The position numbers and the translations under genes were made by a program. This document shows positions 27,531 through 64,000 of a DNA stretch of 64,000 nt, one piece after another. Origin of the DNA: Coniochaeta sp. PMI_546 (lineage: Eukaryota; Ascomycota; Sordariomycetes; Coniochaetales; Coniochaetaceae); NCBI GenBank assembly GCA_021432605.1, contig MU271150.1, positions 2,293,441-2,357,440 on the forward strand, read 5' to 3'. The notes under the pieces were generated by a model. That model searched no databases. It was given only the letters and a program-made list of their open reading frames with translations, and was not told the DNA's origin. Each line of letters opens with the position of its first letter. Positions within the stretch are counted from its first letter, which is position 1.

Positions 27531-29161
27531 GTAAGTAAAGAGTTAGGTCTTTCGGTTTCGTCCCGCCCTTAGTCCGGTTACTTCCCGGGGGCGCTTAACC
27601 GTTTCCGTTACGGCGTCGTCTTTATCTCGTCCCGTTTATACGTAATAATCTTTTTTACTTCGCGTTTTTTATTTTCTTTCGTATCGTCGTCGTTCCGTTT
27701 TCCTAACCTTTCGTTATCTCCCTTTTTATCGGGTTAACTTCTAATCGGTATCGACCCGTATTCGCCCGGTCTTTAAAAGAGGTATATTAACCGGTATTTA
27801 CCGTACCGGTTTCATATCGACTTCTTTTTTCCGTTCCGGTTTCGCGCCGGTTTCCTTTTATCGCTTTAATTTCGTACCGGTTTTTTACCTTCGCGTTTTT
27901 TTCGTACTTTTTTCGCGTTAGAAGGTACGTTAGATCGTACTAAGGTACGTACTTTCCCGGGCGGCCCGTATTTACCTAGTTATTTAATCTAGGCCTTCGT
28001 AATTCTTTTTTTCTTTTCTTTTTTACTAACTAATTTTATTCGTACGTATACTTTTTTTTCTTTACGTTTTTACGTAGTTTTAAACCTTACGTATATTTAT
28101 AGGTTAAATATCTATATTTTCTTAATTCCGCGTTTTAATTTAATATATAATTTGCCTATCTTTTTTCGCGTTTATATTATATAATTTTTAAAGCTACGTT
28201 ATATAATTTCGGTTTATAATTTCGGCTTGTTTTCGCCCGGATTTCCGGTTAAATCGCGGGCCGGCTTTACTGATTATCTTATTTATATTTTCCGTCTTAG
28301 TTTTTACCGGGGTTTACCGAAACCGTTTCGATTTCGTCTTATCTATTTACTAACTTTCTTTTTTCTAATAATTCCCCGTTTTCGTATTTCTATCGTCTTG
28401 ATTTTATTAAAAGTCGTATCCGTTTCGTTATAAAATCGTAACTTTTTATATAATTTCGACTAATAAATTTACGTTTCGTTATCGCCGCGTCGTCGTATTA
28501 ACTTCTTTTCTTTTTAATATTTCCCGCGTCGGGTTTAACCCGATATCTTAACGGTTTTTATTTATTTTATATTAAAAACGGTTTCGAATATATTTAAAAC
28601 CCTAATACGTCGGCGCGTTCCCGGAACGTTCTCGTTCGATTTCTTATTAATTCGTTCTAAGTTCGATTTTTTCTCGTTATAATTATTATACGTTTATTAA
28701 GGTAAAGAATTCAATCGTTATATATAACGTAATAAGTTTTTTTTCTATCCGGCTTCGTTCCGACTTCGCTTAACTTTCGTAAGTTTTTAACGATAAAAAC
28801 CTATTCTTCGTTATATAATCGGTTCTTTTTCGTTATTTAGACGATCTAAATAACTAGGAAATATATCGATCCGTCTGTACCGTTTTTCGTTCCGACCTCG
28901 TATTAATTACGGTTTTAATTTAATAATACGTATCTCGTTATACGTATATAAATTATTCGTTCCGGTAAGATAATTCGTAATTCCGTTACCGGTCTATTTT
29001 TTTCTTTTAATCATAATTTTATCGTTCCGGTTTCGTTTCTTATTCCGGTTATAAACAATTTTACCGTTTTTCGTAACGATATCGTTCTATTTCGTAACGT
29101 TATCGAAATAAATATTACGTAAACTATTATTATTCGTACCGGTTTTGCCCGGTTTTATAAT
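27531..29161. other. RIP-mutated DNA below the shared part of LINE-A (possible LINE 3' UTR)
   Basis: The plus strand is rich in TTCGTTCCGGTTTCG-like words. LINE-B is interrupted at the matching point, so this stretch cannot be tested against it. It may be the 3' part of LINE-A, which would make that element about 7 kb, as for Tad1. A tandem duplication of about 65 bases spans roughly 29,100-29,210 across the junction. Confidence 0.4.
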
Positions 29162-32100
29162 ATTATCGATACGAATATTACGTAAATTATTATTATTCGT
29201 ACCGACTTTATTAAATTTCGTACCGAATTCGATTATTTTATCGTTTATTTCCGCGCCGATACCGAAACGATTCGCGTTTAATTCGATATTCTAATAAATC
29301 GGTAGTATCCCGTTTTTATCGTCCCGGTTTCGTTCCGACCGTTAATTCCCGCTAACGTAACGATTTTATTCGTTTAAAAACGACTTTCGGTATCGTTCGC
29401 GTCGGTATCGATCGTTTATCGAAAGATATTACGGTAATTCTTACCGGTATCGTTACGAAAAAGCCCGTTTTTAAAAAGACGAAATAACTTCGTATAATAA
29501 TCAAATTAGGTTTATTCTAATATCGGTTCTTTTTCGGTTAGATTTCTTTACGAATTTATAAGTTCTTAATAAAAACGGTTAACCGTATCGTTATCTTTTC
29601 CCTTTCGTTTCGATATCGTATTTTTTTCGTATCGTTTATTTTCTTTCGTTTTTACGGTTTTGGTTTTATATTCTTTTTTATTAAGATAAACCTAAATCGT
29701 ATTCGTATTATTTTCGTTATAAAATCCCGCGGTATCTATCCGTTTTCGATCCGTCGTTTTTACGTTTTTATTTTCTTATCTTTTTTCTTTTCGTATTTCC
29801 GTCGGCCTTTTTCGGCCTAAGTTTCTAATAACCTTTTAATAAAATCGTAATATTAGATTTTTTTTAAACTTAAGAATTATTTAACGAACTAGGTAACGTT
29901 TTTCCTTTTTAAAACTCTCGTTACGTCGTCGTAACCTAGCCGTTCTTTTAGCTAACGTTTTTCGTTTTTTTATCTAAAGTAAAACGTTACGATATATTTA
30001 ATTATTTCTTACGCCTAACCGTATTCGTATTCCGGGTTAATCCCCGGGACGCGTTTTTCGAAAAAGAACGCGTTTAGGTTTATATAACCCGTCCGTATTT
30101 AAACTAATAATACGTTTTCCGTTTTCGTTAAGCCGTCGTATAAACGTAATATATTTTCGGTAAGTTTTCTTTCCGCGTTCTCCCCGATATTACGGTAAAT
30201 CTTCGCCTTTCTTATTTACCTTTCGAACGTTTATCTTTCCTTTTAGGATTTAAAGATTCTCTTTTTTTTATATTGGGGACTTTATAAATATTACTTTACC
30301 GCTTCGGTTATTTTTTTCTCGTATTTAGTTAAAGGTCGGGCCGTATATACTTTGCTTTCTTTTCCCCGTTAGGGCCTTTTCGTCTTAACGAACAAATCTT
30401 TCGCCTTATTATATTTATTTCTTAAACTTCCGGCTAACCCGTTTGTTTTATATTTAGTAACGAAGAAATATAACTTCGAATTTAATTAGAAATCGATTAA
30501 AAGGACGAACGTTTCGGTCTCGAATACCGCCGTCTTCGTAACGTTATACGCCCCGGTAACCGACCGTAAGTATAACCTTTATAGTTTATATAAGTCTTTA
30601 TATAATAACGAAGACGGTTTTTTCGTTCCGATAACGGAATATTATATCGTCGATACGTATCCAATTACAAAACGTATTATTATTATATATACGGTTCTCG
30701 CTTTTAGTAAGTTTAGGCCTTAGGTCGAGATTATAAATCTCTCGATTACTAGCTTTTAAGTTTTTATTTTTACGCGGAAGAATTATAAATACGTATTACC
30801 TTTTAGCTTCTAATCTAATATCGTTCCGAAAACCTTAACCTTTCGTTTAGATTTTATTACCTAATTACTTAAGCGTAGTTTGTTTTCGATTAGTTTTTAC
30901 GTCTTCGTAAAATAGATAAGTTAGTATTTCGATAAGTCGAACTTTATTTTAAACTTCTTCGCCTATTTCGTATACGTTACGTATACTTTTCGGAACTATT
31001 TCGTTACGGCTTTTTTATTCCGTCTATACGAAATTAAGGTAATATCGTTAGCGAAACTTTTAAATTTTATCCCGACGTATATTTGAAAACTTTCGTATAA
31101 TACCGACGAGTAAAAGGTAAAAAGGATAAGGGATAGTAATAATCCTTATAAAACCTCGGTCCGAATTCTAATCGGCTTAGATTCGGTATCGTCGAATCTA
31201 AACGTTATCGTTTTTTTTATTAGGAAACTTCTTATTTACGTTTCGATTTATTTTAAAAAGCTTTTTTTATATAAGACGTTTAGAAATCGTTAATAGTTTA
31301 CCTTATCGAATACCCCGGAAACGTTTAAGGTTAGGAATAAGACCGTACCGTTCTCGTCTTAAACCGTATAAACGAGATCTATTATTTTCTAAAAGGTTAT
31401 CTTATAAGACCGACCTCGTTTATTTTTTATCTATTCGTTAGGTAGAAATCTTTATTTTTCCGTTTCGTTTATTATTCGTCTAACGATTATTATTTCGATT
31501 ATTTTCCCTATCGTATTTAAAAACGCGATAAATCGTTATAACCTTATTACGTTTATCTAATCTTTATCTTTCGATAATACGACCGTTTTCGTTTTTTTAA
31601 ATTTCCTTAGGTAATATTTTAATTTAAAGCTCGCGTTCGTTATATTTACAAGCCGTTTTTAAAACGGTTTCCTTAGGACTTTTAATAGTTTATTCGGGAT
31701 CCCGTTTAGGCTAAGGGATTTTTATAATTTAATTTTCCTTAGGGTTTATACGATATTTATCTCGTCGACGTTTTATCGGATCGATAATTTCCTATTTTAA
31801 AGGTAAGTTATAATCGGGTCTTTTCCGATATCGGAAAGGTTTATTTCCGATTCCGGATAGAACTTTTAATTTAGGACCTTTATTTTTTCGTTAAAGGTTT
31901 CTACTTTCGTTTCGCTTTATTTTTTCTTTAAAGCTAGGATAAGGGCTAGGGTTGGTAGTTTATAGTTCCGGAATCGCGTTTACTTCGTAATATTTTATAA
32001 TATCTTTCTTCCGTTATCTTAACTAGAATTATAAAACGCTTTCTTAAATACCGCCTTTTAGGTTTTCCGGATTAATCGTTTTTTCTTCGTTTCGGCCTTT

Positions 32101-49187: not shown

Positions 49188-49579
49188 TATTACGAACCTA
49201 TAGGTGACGGAAGGTGCCCTGCCAATAGATAAGGAACAAGTATACAAGGCTTATCGTAATACATAGGTTAGGGACCTCGAGTCACGTAACCGATAGATAA
49301 GATCGGTATCGATCGCATCTATTACGATAGATCGGATAAACGTCTAGTACGTCTATTACTACAATCTCTACTAATATATAGGAAGGAGTCTTTTTAGGCT
49401 CCGTTATAGATAGTTCTTGATTACCTAATAATCAATCTAAATATTTAATCGAAGTTATTATTAAGTAAGATACTTATCTTAACGATACCAAAGTAAAGAC
49501 TACTTGTTATACCTTAACTTACTTACCTTAAATAATAGAACTTACTTTTTGATCTTTAACCCGTCTTAGGATCGTTATA
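49188..49579 (+). repeat. 5' LTR of Gypsy-2b (392 bp)
   Basis: Reads TATTACGAACC to GATCGTTATA in the sense direction, the RIP-altered forms of TGTTACGAACC..GATCGTTACA. The primer-binding region follows directly (TTTTAATTATTC; TTTTGATCACTC in the Gypsy-2 copy). Confidence 0.92.
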
Positions 49580-52500
49580 TTTTAATTATTCCTATTCGGT
49601 AAGTTAACCCTATACCAAATAGCTAACAATTATATCGACCAAAAAAACCGTTATAACTATATCCAAGGAAAAACTTACTTAGTAGGTTACTAAGCTCGGA
49701 GCTGAATTGGAAAAGTTAAAGAACGAATATAAAGAACTAAAATCCAGATCGGCGGAACTTAAGAACGACCCTAAGACTACGGAACGAACGGCTAAGATCA
49801 AGGCCCCGCGGCCGGAACCCTACGACGGGAACCGCGAAAGGTTATAAACCTTTATCACCTAGACTAATATATACCTCTCGATCAACAAGGCGGTTTTCGT
49901 TTACGAATACGAAAGGGTAATATACGTAATAAGAATACTAAGGGGAAAAGCTACGGAATAATACGAACTAACGTTACGCGATTAGATAAACAATATTACT
50001 AACGATCGCAAACCCGAAACTAGAATACTATTTAACAATCTCGATAAATTCTAAGAGAAACTCCGCGAAACGTTCGGTAATCTTAATAAGACGCGAACGG
50101 CCGAACGATAACTAATAAACCTAAGGTAAAAGGGATCGGCGGGAACTTATACGGCCGAATTCAAACGCCTTTCTACAAAACTCGACTTAAGAGAAACGGC
50201 TCTTATAATTTAGTTTTACGGAAAACTTCGTAATAACGTTAAAAACGAACTTAGTAAGACCGATAAGCCTAAGACTTTCTATAAGTACGTTATATAAGCT
50301 ATCTTAATCGATAATCGATTATACGAACGATAATTAGAAAAGAAACGAAAAAGAGTTACGTAAAGACGGTCTAATAATAATAATACCGCGAATACTAACT
50401 AGAAAAAGTCTACCGCCTATAATAATCATTCTAAACCTATAGAACTAGACGTTACCCGGAAGGATAACTCTAAGAAAAATAAGAAGTACTTTAACTACGG
50501 TAAACAAAGATACTTCGCTAACAAATATCGATAACCTAAGAAAACCTAGAAGCCAATCCCCGAAAATAAGGCTTAAGTAACAATAAAGGAAGATAGATCC
50601 CGCACTATCGTAATAATATATAGAAAACAATAATATAAGGTACTTCTTAGACTACCGGGAGAAAAAGTCGACCTAGTAATAATACTAAAGTACGATATTA
50701 TAAATATAACGTATCTAGTTAATCTATTAGACCGGGAATAGGACGAAATCGAAGAAGAACAAATACCTTTATATAAAGATTACGAATCGGTATATATTAA
50801 CTCGGTCTATTATAACTAGATTTCGTAGAATTCGTACGTTTTCTACCGTTATACTTGGTATATATAAGAAAAACTAGATTACAAATAGATACTAGTACGA
50901 ATACTAATAACTAGACCGATACTTTACCCTTATAGACCTAGAGATATCGAAAGATACGAGGAAGTATATAAGAACGGATAATACCTATTACTAACGCCGT
51001 CCGGAACTATATAATTATAACTTAACCTAACGGGATAGGAGTTCTTAATAACAACGGAACTTAGACGAAAAATCGAAAGTAAGAACTAAATACAAGCTAC
51101 TTACTTACCCGAGAACTCGGTAAGACGAACGGGACGATTAAGATATTCGGTATTAGAAATCGTAACGTAGGTTACGACGGGAGAAAAATCGACCGAAAAG
51201 TTCTAAGTACGATAATACCGTATTAGCGCGTAAATTAATACGTACTTGGCGAGTTACCGGGGCTATAAATTACAAATATAAAAGAAGGTCGAAGAATTAG
51301 TATAAGAAACGGACTAAATAGACAAACGTTTAGATAGATTACTAGCCCCCGAGCCGGAAGCAAAAGAGGAAGAGAACGGGGAACCGTCAAAACCTTCTTT
51401 AAGGGCTAAGGACAAACTTAAATACTACGGTATTTCGTTCCGAAAATCAGAAAAACGGTCAAAAAACGATAAACGTCGATTATAAAGGGATTATATCGAC
51501 GTAATATAAAAAGATCCCTATATACGACCGTAAGAATTAAATACCTACGAATTACGATTAATATATAAGGAAACAATACCCAAATAATAATAGATAACGG
51601 AATACAAGGAAATTATATCTCGCCAAATCTCGTTAATATATTACGATTGCCCTAGAAGAAAAAAGACGAGCCCTACCGACTTAGAACTATTAATAGAAAC
51701 CTTATCGATTATAGATAAGGACTAATAGATATAAAAACTACGCCTTTTCAAATTACTATCTAAAGCTATAATTAAGAGATAACGTTCGATATTACGGAAA
51801 TCTTATCGTACGGTATAATATTAGGGATATCTTAACTACGAACGAATAATCCCCGAATCAATTGGAAAACAAGCTAACTTTAATAGGATACGTTAAAAAG
51901 AAAGTTAACCTTTATAAAAAACGGACTTTACGAGGAAAAGCCTATACGTAACTTTAGAAGAACTTTAATAATCTACGAAACGATTATAAAAACTTAATTT
52001 ATATCGACGCGAACGATTCCGAAGGAATACTATCGATATAACAAACTATTTAAGCCCGAGTTTAAGATAGGATTACCTAAATATAACCGTTAGGATTACG
52101 AAATCAATTTTCAGTTAGGTAAGGAATCCGGATTTTATAAGATTTACCTTTTTAACGACTTATAATTATAAGCGTTAAGAAAATATATTAATAAAAATCT
52201 AAAGAAAGGCTATATTCGACTATTATAATTACTAGTAGGATACCCTATCTTATTCGTACCTAAGAAAAACGGGAAATTACGTCTCGTTATAAACTATCGA
52301 TAGCTTAACAATATTATTATCAAAGATCGAAGACTACTACCTCTTATATCCGAACTAAGAGATCGGTTATATAAGGCCCGATAGTTTATTACCCTAGACC
52401 TTAAGGGAATATATAACTTGTTACGAATTAAAGAAAGAGATAAGTAAAAGACGGTATAACGATTTAGGTTAAGATAATACAAATATTATATTATACCTTT

Positions 52501-55500
52501 CGGGCTCGTTAACGTACTAGCTTCTTTCCAAAAGATAATCAACTACGTATTTCGAAAGTAATTAGACGACTTTATCATCGCGTACTTCGATAATATCTTA
52601 ATCTATTCGGAAGACTTCGAATAATATAAGAAACACGTCTACTTCGTCTTATAAGTATTATAAAACGCGAATTTATTAATCGAACCCGAAAAATACGAAT
52701 TTTACTAACAAAAAGTAAAATTTCTCGGTTACGTTATATTATTAGACTAGTTCGAGATAAACCTAGACAAGCTAAAAGCTATCAAAGAATAGCCCGTACT
52801 AGAAACGGTTACGGGAATACGAACTTTTCTAGGGATTACCAACTTCTATCGGAAGTTTATTAAGGATTATAGTAAGATCGTAATACCCCTTACTAACCTT
52901 ACCAAGAAAGACTTAAGGTTCGAATAGATCTCGAGGGAAGAAGAAACGTTCTAAGAACTCAAGAGGAAGATCTTAAGCCAACTAATACTAATTATTACGG
53001 ATCCCGAAAAACCTTACGAAATAGAAACCGATACGTCAGAGTTCGTATTCGGAAGCCAATTAGGATAAAAAGATAAATAAGGGAGATTATACCCAATAGT
53101 ATTCTTCTCGAAAAAGCTAAGTAGATTAGAACTTAACTATAGTATATTAGATAAGGAACTAATAGCTATTATTAAGGCGTTTAAAGAATAGAAATACTAC
53201 CTTATAGGAACAAGATATAAGGTAAAAATCTTAACGGATTATAAGAATCTTACTACGTTTACTTTTACGAAAGAACTTAACAAACGATAAATCAAATAGT
53301 ATAAATTCCTTACCGATTTCGACTTCGAAATTATATATAAGAAAGGAAATAAAAATAGTAGAACGGACGTTCTTAGTCGACGAAAAGATTTGAAACTAAA
53401 AAAGGAAATACGTTCGGCGAACTTCCTTAAGATTAACTAATAAGGAAATCTTAAACTCGATATATAGGTCGGAATAATATAGAACGTAGAACCCGAAAAA
53501 CAATAGGCGGAAAGGATTAAGAAATATCGGAAAGAAAAAGTAAAGGAAGATATTACCTTTATATTTCCGTTATACTACGGCTTACTATAGTTTAGGAACA
53601 AGGTATATATACCTAATAAACTACGGAAGGAATTAGTAAAGGAATTCTACAAATATCCGTTATATAGATACTAAGGAATCTATAAGACTAAAGAACGCGT
53701 ACGGCGGACTTACGACTTTCCGGGACTAGATAAGGTAGTCAAACAAGTTATTAACAAATACGATAAATATAATAAAGCTAAGTTAAATAAATATAAGCCG
53801 TACGGGCTATTACAACTTATATAACTACCGGGGAAACTATAGGAAATAGTTACGATAGACTTTATCGTCAAACTACTAACGTCGAAGGAACTTATAACTA
53901 AGATCGTTTACGATAATATATAGGTAGTTATAAACAAATTCTCCAAATACGCGTATTTTATACCGTATAAGGAAACAAGTATAGCGGAAGATATAGCCTA
54001 CGCCTTTTTAAAGGTAATAGTAAGCTAATATAGATTACTTAAATAACTTATTACCGATAGAGACAAGTTATTTACCTTAAAGTTCTAGATAATACTAATA
54101 CGACAAATCGGAATCAAATATAAGTTATCGATATCGTTTTACCCGTAAACAAATAGGCAAATAAAACGAACGAACCAAACCTTTAAATAATATCTAAGGA
54201 TATATATTAACGAAAAGCAAGATAATTAAGTCAGGTAATTACCAATAGTATAATAGGCCTATAATAGTATACCTAGCGAAATACTAAACGGGTACTTACC
54301 GTTCTTTATCAATTACGGTTATAAGCCTACTATAAGGGAAATACTAGGAAACGAACTAATACCGTCGGATCCGGAATTATTATAAATAAGATATACCGTA
54401 AAACAAATAAAACTACTTTATAAGAGATTTCGCGGATATATAGAATTATTCAACCTACGAATAATACGATACGTAAACTAGAAAAGGTTAAAAAGACTAA
54501 CTTTATAAGAAAAAGATAAAATCTACCTCGTACGACGAAATATTAAAACGAAACGACTAAACGACAAATTAGACTAAAAGAAAATCGGACTATTTAAGAT
54601 TAAGAAAAAGCTATCTAATTAGAACTATAAACTCTAACTACTAACGAACATATATATTCACCTAGTATTTCATATCTCGCTTTTTAAACCGGCGTTTAAG
54701 AACGCGAAGTTAGTAATAGATATTAAAATTAAACTAACGTAAGAATACGAAGTAGAAAAGATCCTTAGGTATAAAAAGGAAAGAAATATAAACTTCTATT
54801 ACGTCAAATAGAAAAACTACGACGATTCGGAAAACACGTAGGAACCGGAAACTTACTTTACGAACTATTAGCAATTGCTATAAGAGTTTTATATTATAAT
54901 AATATCATTACCTTAAGAGTCGAAAGGGATAGTATTACGTCGTTATAAACTATATCCTAACCTAAAATAAAATCGTTATTAAAGGAAAAGGACGTAACGG
55001 AAGGCGGACGATTCTCGGTAACTCTCGTTACCTTACGATCGGTTTCCTCTTTTTCGACCCGTTCTAATTCCTCTATACTCGTTATACCTTTACGGACGGT
55101 ACGTATTATTTTCTCGAATTATATTTTCTTTTGTTTTCGTAAACGTTATACGCGAACGTTTACCTCCCGTTAAGTAACCTCGGCAACTTCCATTTCTTCT
55201 TTAAAACGACGGAACTGATCGCCGATCCTTACGAAGTCTTCGTTAGAAAGACTAAATACGTCGTATTTTAAACGACTATTACGAATATATTCGGAATACC
55301 TCGAAGAGTTACTAAACGAGGCGCGATAGGTAAGACCTAATCGTTCGTAGGAAAAATATTCGGGTATCTCGATAAAGGATTTAAAGATAGTACGTAATAA
55401 GGCGTTTTTTCGGTTAGTCGATAATTTGGAAGATTTCTTTTGTTTTTATATACTACGGTTAGATATAATAACGATAAAGAAAAGAAAACCTTCGGACGTA

Positions 55501-55558
55501 ACTTATATAGGCTATTAATATTATTTATAAGAAGTATTAGGCCTTAGGGATAATAACC

Positions 55559-55572
55559 AAAGGAGGAGGGGG
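55559..55572 (+). promoter_or_regulatory. Polypurine tract of Gypsy-2b
   Basis: AAAGGAGGAGGGGG lies four bases before the 3' LTR and would prime plus-strand DNA synthesis. The Gypsy-2 copy keeps AAAGGAAGAGGGG on the minus strand at 43,642-43,656. Confidence 0.75.
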
Positions 55573-55576
55573 ATAA

Positions 55577-55968
55577 TATTACAAATTTATAAGTAACGGA
55601 AAGTACCCCGCTAATAGATAAAGAACAAGCATACGAGGCTTATCGTAATATATAGGTTAGGGACCTCGAGTTACGTAACCGATAGATAAGATCGGTATCG
55701 ATCGTATCTATTACGATAGATCGGATAAACGTCTAATACGTCTATTACTATAATCTCTATTAATATATAAGAAAAAGTCCTTTTAGGCTCCGCTATAGAT
55801 AGTTCTTAATTACCTAGTGATCAATCTAAATATTCAATCGAGATTATCATTAAGTAAGATACTTATCTTAACGATACCAAAATAAAGATTACTTATTATA
55901 CCTTAACTTACTTACCCTAAGTAATAGAACTCACCTTCTGATCTTTAGCCCGTCTTAGGATCGTTATA
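55577..55968 (+). repeat. 3' LTR of Gypsy-2b (392 bp)
   Basis: Same length and same ends as the 5' LTR of this element, with RIP-type differences only in the parts compared by eye. Confidence 0.92.
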
Positions 55969-56388: not shown

Positions 56389-56780
56389 TATAACGATCCT
56401 ACGACGGGCTAAGGATCAGAAGGTAAGTTCTATTACTTAAGGTAAGTAAGTTAAGGTATAATAAGTAGTCTTTATTCTAATATCGTTAAGATAAGTATCT
56501 TACTTAATAATAACCTCGATTGAATATTTAGATTGATTATTAGGTGATCAAGAACTATCTATAGCGGAATTTAAAAAGACTCCTTCTTATATACTTGTAA
56601 AGACTATGGTAATAGATATATTAGACGTCTATCTGATCTATCGTAATAGATACGATCGATACCGATCCTATCTATCAATTACCTAACTTGAGGTCCCTGA
56701 CCCATATACTACGATAAGCCTCGTATACATGTTCCTTATCTATTAGCGGGGTACCTTCCGTCACCTATAGGTTCGTAATA
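56389..56780 (-). repeat. 5' LTR of Gypsy-2 (392 bp)
   Basis: Pairs with 43,248-43,639. The ATATA duplication follows at 56,781-56,785. Upstream in the sense direction lies the Gypsy-3 gag that was split by the insertion. Confidence 0.92.
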
Positions 56781-57351
56781 ATATAGTTTGAAACTAACCC
56801 TTTCTATCGGAAGGTTTATAACTTACGTTTAGCTATCCTTTCCTCGTCTAAGGTACCGAAAGTTTTCTTTAAGGTATCGGCGAAGTTTAAGAAAGACCCG
56901 AAGATCTTATTAGTCTTATCGTCGCGATCCGACTTTCTATTCTTAGAATAGTCCCGTAAAGTTAGTTTAAACTAACCGAACGCGTCGCCTTTAAAAGGTA
57001 AGTAACGTAGAAAACCTTACGTTCTTTATCCGGAAAATCGTATATATTATAACGGAAGTAAGCCTTAGATTAGGTAAAGAAACCTTAGAAAATCTTTAGA
57101 TTCCTATCGTAAACTTAAGGCGGGGATATTTTAAGACGGTTACCTTTTCCCCTAACTTATTATTCTTAGAGTTATATAAATATAGTTTGAAGTTAGACGA
57201 TTTTATTCGTTATAATTTAAAGCGAGATTCCTTAAGGTATAGCTTAAACTTATAGATTCGAATTGCTTACTTTCGGTATTACCGATATTATTACTTATAA
57301 AGTATTATTTAATAGTATATAAGTAACTAAGTTGAATAGGAACGATTAATA

Positions 57352-61000: not shown

Positions 61001-63616
61001 TAAGCTTTAAGAAAAACTAAACCGTAAAAAGCCTTCGGGTTAGATAAGATCCCGAACGGGCTATTAAAAGTTTTAGGGAAGCCGTTCCGAAAACGATTCG
61101 TAAGTATAATAAACGCGAGTTTTAAATTAAGATATTACTTAAGGAAGTTTAAGGAAACGAAAATTATCGTTTTTCTGAAAAATAAAGACCGGATAAATAT
61201 AATAAAGTCGTAACGATTTATCGTGTTTTTAAATACGATAGGGAAAGTAATTAAAATAATAATCATTAGACGTATAGTAAACGAAACGGAAAAATAAGGA
61301 TTTCTACCCGACGAATAAATAAGGAATAAGTAAGGTCGGTTATACGAGATAGCTTTCTAAAGAATAATAAATCTCGTTTATATAGTTTAAGACGAGAATA
61401 GAACGGTTTCGTTTTTAACCTTAAACGTTTCCGGGGCGTTCGATAAAGTAAATTACCGGTAATTTTTAAACGTTTTATATAAGAAAGGTTTTTTAAAATA
61501 AGTCGAGATATAGATAAAAAAACTTCCTAGTAAAAAGGACGATAACGTTTAGATTTAACGATACCGAGTTTAAACCGATTAAAATTCGAAACGGGGTCTT
61601 ATAAGGATTATTATTATCCCCTATTTTTTTTACTTTCTATTCGGTAATATTATACGAAAGCTTTTAAATATATCGGAATAGAATCTAGGGGTTTTATTAA
61701 CGATATTACTTTAATTTCGTATAGACGGAATAAAAAAGCTATAACGAAATAGTTCCGAAAGGTATACGTAACGTATACGAGATAGGTAAAGAAGTTTGGG
61801 ATAAAGTTCGACTTTTTAAAATACTAACTTATCTACTTTATAAAGACGTAAAAGCTAATCGAAACGAATTACGTTTAGGCGATTAAATAATAAAATTAAG
61901 ACGAAAGGTTAAGGTTTTCGGAACGATATTAAATTAGAGATTAAAAGGTAACGTATATTTATAATTTTTCCGCGTAAAAATAGAAACCTAAAAGCTAATA
62001 ATCGAAAGAGCTATAGCTTCGATTTAAGGCTTAAGTTTATTAAAAGTAAGAACGGTATATACGGCGGTAATATATTTTATAATCGGATACGTATCGACGA
62101 TATAATATTCCGTTACCGGAACGAAAAAACCGTTTTTATTATTATATAAAGATTTATATAAGTTATAAAGGTTATATTTACGATCGGTTACCGGGGTATA
62201 TAATATTATAAAGATAATAATATTCGAAACCGAAACGTTCGTCTTTTTAATCGACTTCTAACTAAATTCGAAGTTATATTCTTTCGTTATTAAATACGAA
62301 ATAAATAAACTAGCCGAAAGTTTAAGAAATAAATATAATAAGGCGAGAAACTTATTTGTTAAAACGAAGAAAGTATAGTAAGGTAAGGGAAATAAAATAT
62401 ATACGGCTCGATTTTTAACTAAGTACGAGAAAAAGATAGCCGAAACGTTAAAATAGTATTTATAAGGCCTTTAATATAAGGAAAAGAGAATTTTCGAATC
62501 TTAGAAAGAGAGATAGGAATTCGAAAGGCGAACGAAAAGAATAAAGATTTATTATAATATCGGGGAAAACGCGGAGAGAAAACTTACCGAAAATACGTTA
62601 TATTTATACGACGGCTTAACGAAGATAGAAAACGTATTATTAATCTAAATACGAACGGGTTATATAAACCTAAACGTATTCTTTTTCGAAAAACGCGTTC
62701 CGGAGGTTAATTTAGAATACGAATACGGATAAGCGTAAGAAATAGTTAAATATATCGTAACGTTTTACTTTAGATAAAAGAACGAAAGATTTTAATTAAA
62801 AAAACGGTTAAGTTATAACGACGTAACGAGAATATTAAGAAAGAAAAACGTCGTCTAGTTTATTAAATAATTCTTAAATCTAAAAAGGATTTAATATTAT
62901 AATCTTATTAAAAGGTTAATAGAAACTTAAGCCGAAAAAGGCCGGAAAAGGCGTAAAAAACGTACGACCGGGGAATAAGAATATAAAAACGGCGGACCGA
63001 AGATAAACGGATTACGCGGGATATTATAACGAAGATAATATAAGTACGATTTAAATTTACTTTAATCCCGACGGGAAAAAGTAAAAGACCGGGACCGTAA
63101 AAACGTAAGATAATAAACGATACGAAAAAAATATGATATCGAAACGAAAGGGAAAAGATAACGATACGGTTAACCGTTTTTATTAGGGATTTATAAAGTC
63201 GTAAAGAAGTCTAACCGAAAGAGAACCGATATTAAAACGAACCTAAATTAATTATTATACGAAATTATTTCTTCTTAAGAACGGGCTTTTTCGTAACGGT
63301 ACCGGTAAAAACCGTTCCGATATTTTACGATAAACGATCGATACCGACGTAAATAATACCGAAAGTTATCTTTAGACGAATAAAATCGTTACGTTATCGA
63401 AAATTAAAGATCGGAACGAGGTCGGGATAATAAAAACGGGATACGATCGATTTATTAGAATATCGAATTAAATACGAATTATTTCGGTATCGGTACGAAT
63501 AAACCCGATAACGTTACGAAATTTATTAATATAAACGATATAATAATCGAATTCGGTATAAAATTTGGTAATATTAACGCGAATAATAATAATCTATATA
63601 ATATTCGTATCGATAA
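58096..63616 (+). mobile_element. LINE-B: RIP-mutated Tad1-like non-LTR retrotransposon, interrupted at its 3' part
   Basis: Plus-strand counterpart of LINE-A. ORF1 remnants carry a zinc knuckle at about 59,181-59,225, where Y-x2-Y-x4-Y-x4 spacing reflects mutated CCHC residues (readable as YNYYQFGYKVRF-like). The endonuclease should lie at about 59.5-60.3 kb. The reverse transcriptase shows LNVSGAFDKVNY at 61,418-61,455 and an F-x-N-D-I-T-L-I box at 61,691-61,718, from an original F-x-D-D. The C-terminal IRTGYINLNVFFF-like segment at about 62.65-62.75 kb is typical of Tad1/I-type LINEs. A run of A with few interruptions precedes the 5' end (58,078-58,100). The element is cut at 63,616 by an LTR; LINE-A shows the sequence that should follow. 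Confidence 0.82.
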
Positions 63617-64000
63617 TGTAACGATCCCAAGACGGGCTAAGGATCAGAAGGTGAGTTCTGTTACTTAGGGTAAGTAAGTTAAGGTGTAACAAGCAGTCTT
63701 CACTCTGGTATCGTTAAGACAAGTGTCTTACTCAAAAGATAACCTCAATTGAATACTTAGATTGATCACTGGGTGATCAAGAACTATCTGTAGCGGAGTC
63801 TAGAGAGACTCCTTCCTATATACTTGTAGAGACTGTGGTGATATGGTCGATAGGAAACTATCACCCATATCCTGATATGCCTGCTATGAAACTATTCCTT
63901 CTATCAGTCACGTGACCCGGGGTCCCTGGCCCATGCAGTGCGATACGCCCTGCATGTCTGTTCCTTATCGATTGGCGGGGTTCCCTTCGTAACCGTTGGT
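63617..64000 (-). repeat. Nearly RIP-free LTR of the Gypsy-2 family, cut by the window edge
   Basis: Begins TGTAACGATCCCAAGACGGG, with the intact TG end that has become TA in all other copies. It keeps abundant CA and TG throughout. It aligns with the 392-bp LTRs except for a core at about 63,840-63,905 that is unrelated to them. The last few bases probably lie beyond the window. Its orientation matches Gypsy-2 (minus), so either a minus-strand element begins to the right of the window or this is a solo LTR. Confidence 0.85.

Follow-up and report, generated by a model that had tools for sequence, protein, structure and literature searches.

A near-unmutated LTR at a contig end of Coniochaeta sp. 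PMI_546 is probably the outer LTR of a recent Ty3/gypsy-type insertion into RIPped DNA

New insertions of MAGGY and Pyret from Magnaporthe fall in repeat-rich, heterochromatin-like DNA. The crapaud element of the Podospora anserina complex, according to the excerpted part of its description, carries gag together with reverse transcriptase (RT), RNase H, integrase, and a chromodomain; its LTR subfamilies differ in the U3 half and have R/U5 in common, and its un-RIPped bursts occur beside RIPped copies (PMC10787394). Further background, likewise from partial texts, is available on RID/Masc1 (PMC2432034), on kingdom-wide RIP (PMC12543289), and on chromodomains (PMC3605345). In this study, a stretch of 64,000 nucleotides from Coniochaeta sp. 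PMI_546 (hereafter designated the window; C8:2293441-2357440) was analyzed, base 64000 of which is the last base of contig C8 (total, 2,357,440 bp). The window contains the following features, index 2 being the ratio (CA+TG)/(AC+GT).

22700-63616, no strand: RIPped repeat block of 40.9 kb (GC 0.31; index 2, 0.12), recipient of the young insertion
28168-30130, minus strand: relative of the insertion site that lacks the insertion; across the junction, the joined C8 and C17 flanks align to it with 81.6% identity
43247-43639, plus strand: older RIPped LTR, assigned to a sister subfamily by LTR comparison
49188-49580, minus strand: older RIPped LTR, bounding an apparent full-length RIPped element together with 55573-55968
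52256-52738, plus strand: reverse transcriptase remnant of the RIPped element 49188-55968, with 2 TAG and 8 TAA inside (C8:2345696-2346178)
54746-54889, plus strand: chromodomain remnant of the RIPped element 49188-55968, with 3 TAG and 1 TAA (C8:2348186-2348329)
55573-55968, minus strand: older RIPped LTR at the opposite end of the element 49188-55968
56389-56784, plus strand: older RIPped LTR, assigned to a sister subfamily by LTR comparison
63612-63616, plus strand: target-site duplication (TSD) GATAA; the same GATAA follows the LTR end, at the C17 contig end
63617-64000, plus strand: young un-RIPped LTR, truncated by the contig end to its first 384 bp out of 392

The young LTR has a length of 392 bp and TG...CA ends, and the sense strand of the edge copy is the minus strand, taking the direction of gag-pol as judged from the related element C24:16054-22839. 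The first-pass annotation had described the LTR at 63617-64000 as almost unmutated, with its TG terminus and most CA and TG dinucleotides kept, next to about 41 kb of RIPped DNA and four further LTRs of the same family. Indeed, the edge LTR starts with TG, retains 46 CA+TG per 384 bp at a GC content of 0.453, and has RIP indices of 1.14 (TA/AT), 0.88 (index 2), and 0.26 (composite index). When the indices were computed for each LTR, it differed from all four others, which have 10-15 CA+TG, an index 2 of 0.25-0.35, a GC content of 0.316-0.336, and a composite index of 0.96-1.21. The adjoining block also agreed with that description, having an index 2 of 0.12 as compared with 1.16 in 1-22000; the RIP signature (TpA excess and CpA/TpG depletion) was present in repeats and absent from gene-rich DNA. 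Within the block, the segment 35200-35500 keeps more CA/TG than its surroundings (16 per 300 bp).

Relative to the edge LTR, the four older LTRs showed RIP-direction changes at 25-28 of 44 aligned CA/TG sites, a heavy loss for which the earlier wording, nearly all CpA/TpG, is a little strong. They also carried 19-23 transversions and 7-11 indel positions, and the transversion and indel positions numbered 2-3 in LTR 1-200 as against 21-24 in LTR 200-300. By this comparison, the four are assigned to a sister subfamily with another U3, and part of their divergence from the edge LTR is therefore not RIP. The earlier grouping of five LTRs into one family, four of them RIPped, accordingly stands as to RIP but needs to be amended for the sister subfamily, whose divergence at LTR 200-300 is partly of another origin.

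The edge LTR splits an older, RIPped repeat and is accompanied by a matching duplication of 5 bp; together with 20 young copies showing no RIP change in their readable parts (see below), this supports the earlier proposal that it inserted after RIP had last acted on this locus. The flanking element outside the window, which according to the first-pass annotation may still be active, would lie beyond the end of the contig. The edge LTR is no lone exception at genome scale, where 12 or 13 such sites, including one on contig C1, were found. The 48 contig ends of the assembly comprise 19 within the young LTR, 15 in telomere repeat, and 11 others (45 read). With the LTR drawn as in the window, 11 of the 19 consist of the left flank and the first 93-384 bp of the LTR, and eight consist of the last 295-366 bp and the right flank. 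The copy on C1 is a complete interior solo LTR of 392 bp with the TSD ACCGT on both sides. These 20 copies were identical, with no difference over 6,540 bp, although sharing of reads among copies during assembly could make the contig ends look more alike than they are. A 44-base LTR core gave exactly 19 matches (18 contig ends and the C1 solo LTR; 0 in the backward control), the 20th young copy, at the start of C14, stopping short of the core. Allowing up to three mismatches added 17 matches, which showed RIP-type changes plus one fixed A/G difference and one transversion. An element linked to telomeres was considered and rejected, since the telomeric ends (15/48) and the LTR ends (19/48) are different ends.

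Several other contig ends also carry repeats. The end of C3 (L047, 2902-3000) and the start of C11 (L036, 1-99) share 99 identical bases in opposite orientation, and the end of C13 (L055, 267-361), which looks Copia-like by eye, has a 97% copy; as far as their sequences tell, a second exact repeat probably breaks the assembly at these ends. The end of C10 (L052) and the start of C13 (L037) contain a similar minisatellite with units like CACCTACCCTATACC and may adjoin. The start of C24 (L045, 1-600) is 96% identical to L046, 42-641, located about 2.4 kb from the telomeric end of C1, as a subtelomeric duplication.

The LTR ends could be paired by their TSDs. Thus, a 5-bp TSD links seven of the eight right-flank ends to one of the 11 left-flank ends: C8-C17 (GATAA), C6-C22 (CCCTT), C24-C9 (ATAAT), C23-C4 (AAAGG), C19-C17 (CAGAT), C10-C15 (GCTAG), and C14-C12 (TATAT). 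In 20,000 random draws from the same flanks, chance pairing reached a maximum of 4/8, and only once. Partnerless by TSD were four left-flank ends and one right-flank end (5/19), and the number of young sites is given as 12 or 13 because two of the partnerless ends may or may not belong together. The ends of C20 and C21 (GGTAA and GTAAT) were tried as partners and rejected, having neither an exact TSD match nor a spanning join. Moreover, all combinations of a left and a right flank were joined after deletion of one TSD copy, and the resulting 88 joins were compared with 51 loci rather than with the whole genome; a join was regarded as spanning when it aligned over at least 150 bp both to the left and to the right of the junction and was free of gaps within 30 bp of it. 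Six of the 88 joins spanned to uninterrupted relatives among the 51 loci, all of them TSD pairs, whereas none of the 81 non-TSD joins spanned the junction in the same set. The TSD pair C19-C17 had no empty site among these 51 loci.

These results show that, beyond the window, the chromosome continues in C17 reversed, with a young element in the gap between, as evidenced by both the TSD and the empty site. From there, the TSD shared by C19 and C17 points to another young element, followed by C19 reversed and a telomere. Contigs C23 and C4 each have a telomere at the far end and are joined at a young insertion (AAAGG, with a gap-free empty site); together, they would make up one chromosome of about 3.1 Mb plus the element.

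The nature of the family was judged on a lightly RIPped relative, C24:16054-22839, which is flanked by CCTCT on both sides and has two LTRs with the same U3 as the young LTR (94.4% identical), distinguished from each other by transitions at 24 positions. Relative to the LTR as drawn, its gag and pol lie in the opposite orientation, and its open pieces, scanned separately, matched gag (PF03732/PF19259), aspartyl protease (PF13975), and RT (PF00078). At the end of pol, C24:21611-21757 matched the chromodomain PF00385 (28.2 bits versus a cut-off of 25.1) and contains three in-frame TAG. Judged on this relative, the family appears to be Ty3/gypsy-type with a chromodomain at the end of pol. Between the pol end and the element's LTR, antisense open pieces of 98 and 60 aa (L011:7823-8302, minus strand) matched no Pfam family above the cut-off. 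Among the 124 RVT_1 matches in the assembly, 123 carry stops, and no intact RT of this LTR family was found among them; the sole stop-free match, C8:731217-731492, lies in a 603-aa frame and is presumably telomerase or another host gene. Likewise, no intact young interior was found in the assembly with two DNA pieces, a gag piece, and RVT_1 as queries. The two DNA queries and the gag query had been taken from the C24 element, whose own gag piece is stop-free by construction, and the other stop-free gag matches were two short fragments covering 43 and 30 query positions.

Three waves of insertion were distinguished, namely a heavily RIPped, a lightly RIPped (92.6-94.4%), and an untouched one. 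One young insertion splits a lightly RIPped copy into the halves C24:97016-99792 and C9:1086296-1090307, which join gap-free at the junction against L011 with 93% identity. Since copies with the same U3 (92.6-94.4%) are lightly to moderately RIPped, and one of them is split by a young insertion, RIP acted on the young subfamily before the last wave, and the burst is younger than the last RIP event. Three positions were compared at which the lightly RIPped copy and the young wave differ in a non-RIP direction; two of 29 older LTR stretches have the young state at all three, and 27 do not (three of these have it at the third position), a pattern that argues against descent of the young wave directly from the lightly RIPped copies.

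Collectively, we consider it probable that the edge LTR is the outer LTR of a recent Ty3/gypsy-type insertion with chromodomain relatives, one of 12-13 young sites whose interiors were lost at assembly breaks. The element, presumably with a coding-intact interior and transposing in vegetative growth, would have spread to 12-13 places once RIP had acted on it in a sexual cycle for the last time, leaving identical and un-RIPped copies, with nearly all insertions falling in older repeats that were already RIPped. At each of the 15 telomeric ends, the repeat is cut off after 95-97 bp, which suggests a k-mer-limited assembly, presumably from short reads. In such an assembly, older repeats made unique by RIP would be assemblable, and young exact repeats would be longer than the assembler could bridge, each unbridged young copy giving a contig break within the LTR and a lost interior. 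Because the assembler passed the 392-bp solo LTR on C1, the sites at the breaks probably hold something longer than 392 bp, most simply a whole element. The break positions scatter over 295-384 bp into the LTR, with one at 93 and no pile-up at the LTR end, and this scatter is not predicted by a plain graph-fork model at the LTR end.

If the young sites were instead solo LTRs, their 392 bp would be too short for RIP recognition, and the un-RIPped state would say little about RIP or the intactness of an element. C1 holds the only young site that was assembled through, a solo LTR with matching TSDs; a young interior was not found in the assembly, and solo or fragment crapaud LTRs of Podospora are mostly un-RIPped, which the excerpted part of that report attributes to size (PMC10787394). 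However, 11-12 unbridged solo LTRs equal in length to the one passed on C1 would need a reason, and small size accounts for the absence of RIP but leaves unexplained why 20 copies lack any ordinary mutation. Nor was any older un-RIPped LTR with few scattered mutations seen, whole-LTR identity dropping from 100% to 94.4% (40 of 231 candidates scored), and in the 17 core matches with 1-3 mismatches, all differences are of the RIP type apart from the single fixed A/G difference and transversion. Solo LTRs at the breaks are thus quite unlikely. Wrong attachment of an LTR from another locus to the C8 end, to which the location of 19 of the 20 young copies at contig ends might point, is hardly credible, because seven end pairs share a TSD, six of the seven joined flanks restore an uninterrupted repeat, and the C1 copy is interior with TSDs.

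A loss of RIP in the lineage, or its becoming too weak, with the un-RIPped burst as the consequence, would agree with the 20 young LTR copies free of RIP change, and the first-pass annotation had suggested that RIP is weak or inactive now. That suggestion was not borne out: the same-U3 copies at 92.6-94.4% show light to moderate RIP from before the last wave, and the RID-like (912 aa) and DIM-2-like (1344 aa) frames are open, making the loss of RIP unlikely. Three cytosine methyltransferase matches were found in open frames (C14, C5, and C17). The 1344-aa frame on C14 has BAH and methylase domains and is DIM-2-like, the nearest solved structure being 9bap, which we take to be Neurospora DIM-2. 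The 912-aa frame on C5, with a DNA_methylase match and no BAH match, is putatively RID-like by exclusion, and the 2157-aa frame on C17, with a weak methyltransferase match, is presumably DNMT5-like. Another host protein, Mpp10, has its nearest solved structure in chain 5oql_c, presumably from Chaetomium. A stretch without meiosis, as in a heterothallic strain kept asexual, would explain the un-RIPped wave equally, without loss of RIP. The mating-type locus of Sordariomycetes is expected beside SLA2. An HMG-box match on C5, 6 kb from an SLA2-type gene and interrupted by one in-frame stop that may reflect an intron, is a candidate mating-type gene and fits a meiosis-free stretch weakly; a profile search for the MAT-alpha box (PF04769) gave no match, but neither did its controls.

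As for the landing sites of the young element, 18 of the 19 contig-end flanks (400 bp) had a composite index of at least 0.86, the exception being the C17 start flank (-0.10), whose TSD partner C19 is RIPped. Both flanks of the C1 solo LTR are also RIPped. Among 20 random points taken as background, one was clearly RIPped and another was borderline. This bias toward RIPped DNA would be accounted for by chromodomain-guided integration, and also by selection against gene insertions (survivor bias). Tentatively, RIPped relics marked as heterochromatin may attract the chromodomain integrase, whereby young un-RIPped copies would settle among the remains of their own family, leave genes unharmed, and be maintained through asexual growth, and active copies would vanish from short-read assemblies; this sequence of events is conceivable, though we would not call it probable. 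If true, RIP would look more complete than it is in short-read assemblies.

In a strongly RIPped genome, where old repeats are unique, contig ends chart the sequences that have so far escaped RIP. In this assembly, 19 of 48 ends lead to a single young element, while stops occur in 123 of 124 RT matches, and an active family could go unnoticed when intact elements are surveyed or RIP efficiency is assessed on assemblies of this kind. In addition, contigs can be joined without further sequencing if their ends are paired by TSD and empty site. A literature search found no paper in which contig breaks serve to mark un-RIPped elements, which is not proof of absence.

The finding is ordinary transposon biology, for which no new mechanism is needed. 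Compared by layout rather than by sequence, the family resembles crapaud, as far as the excerpted description goes, in the order of gag, pol, and chromodomain, in subfamilies defined by U3, and in bursts beside RIPped copies (PMC10787394). As in the U3 subfamilies of crapaud, the transversions and indels concentrate in the 5-prime half in the sense direction, here LTR 200-300; the difference is that the young sites are seen here only as contig breaks and one solo LTR. MAGGY and Pyret, Ty3/gypsy chromoviruses of Magnaporthe that are named in PMC3605345, likewise have a chromodomain at the pol end. The preference for repeat-rich DNA is also similar, although survivor bias may account for it here as well. 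RIP itself appears in its known form: repeats carry CpA to TpA changes on either strand, gene-rich DNA is left unaffected, and putatively RID-like and DIM-2-like genes are present. It differs in that none of the 20 copies seen from the youngest wave has been touched.
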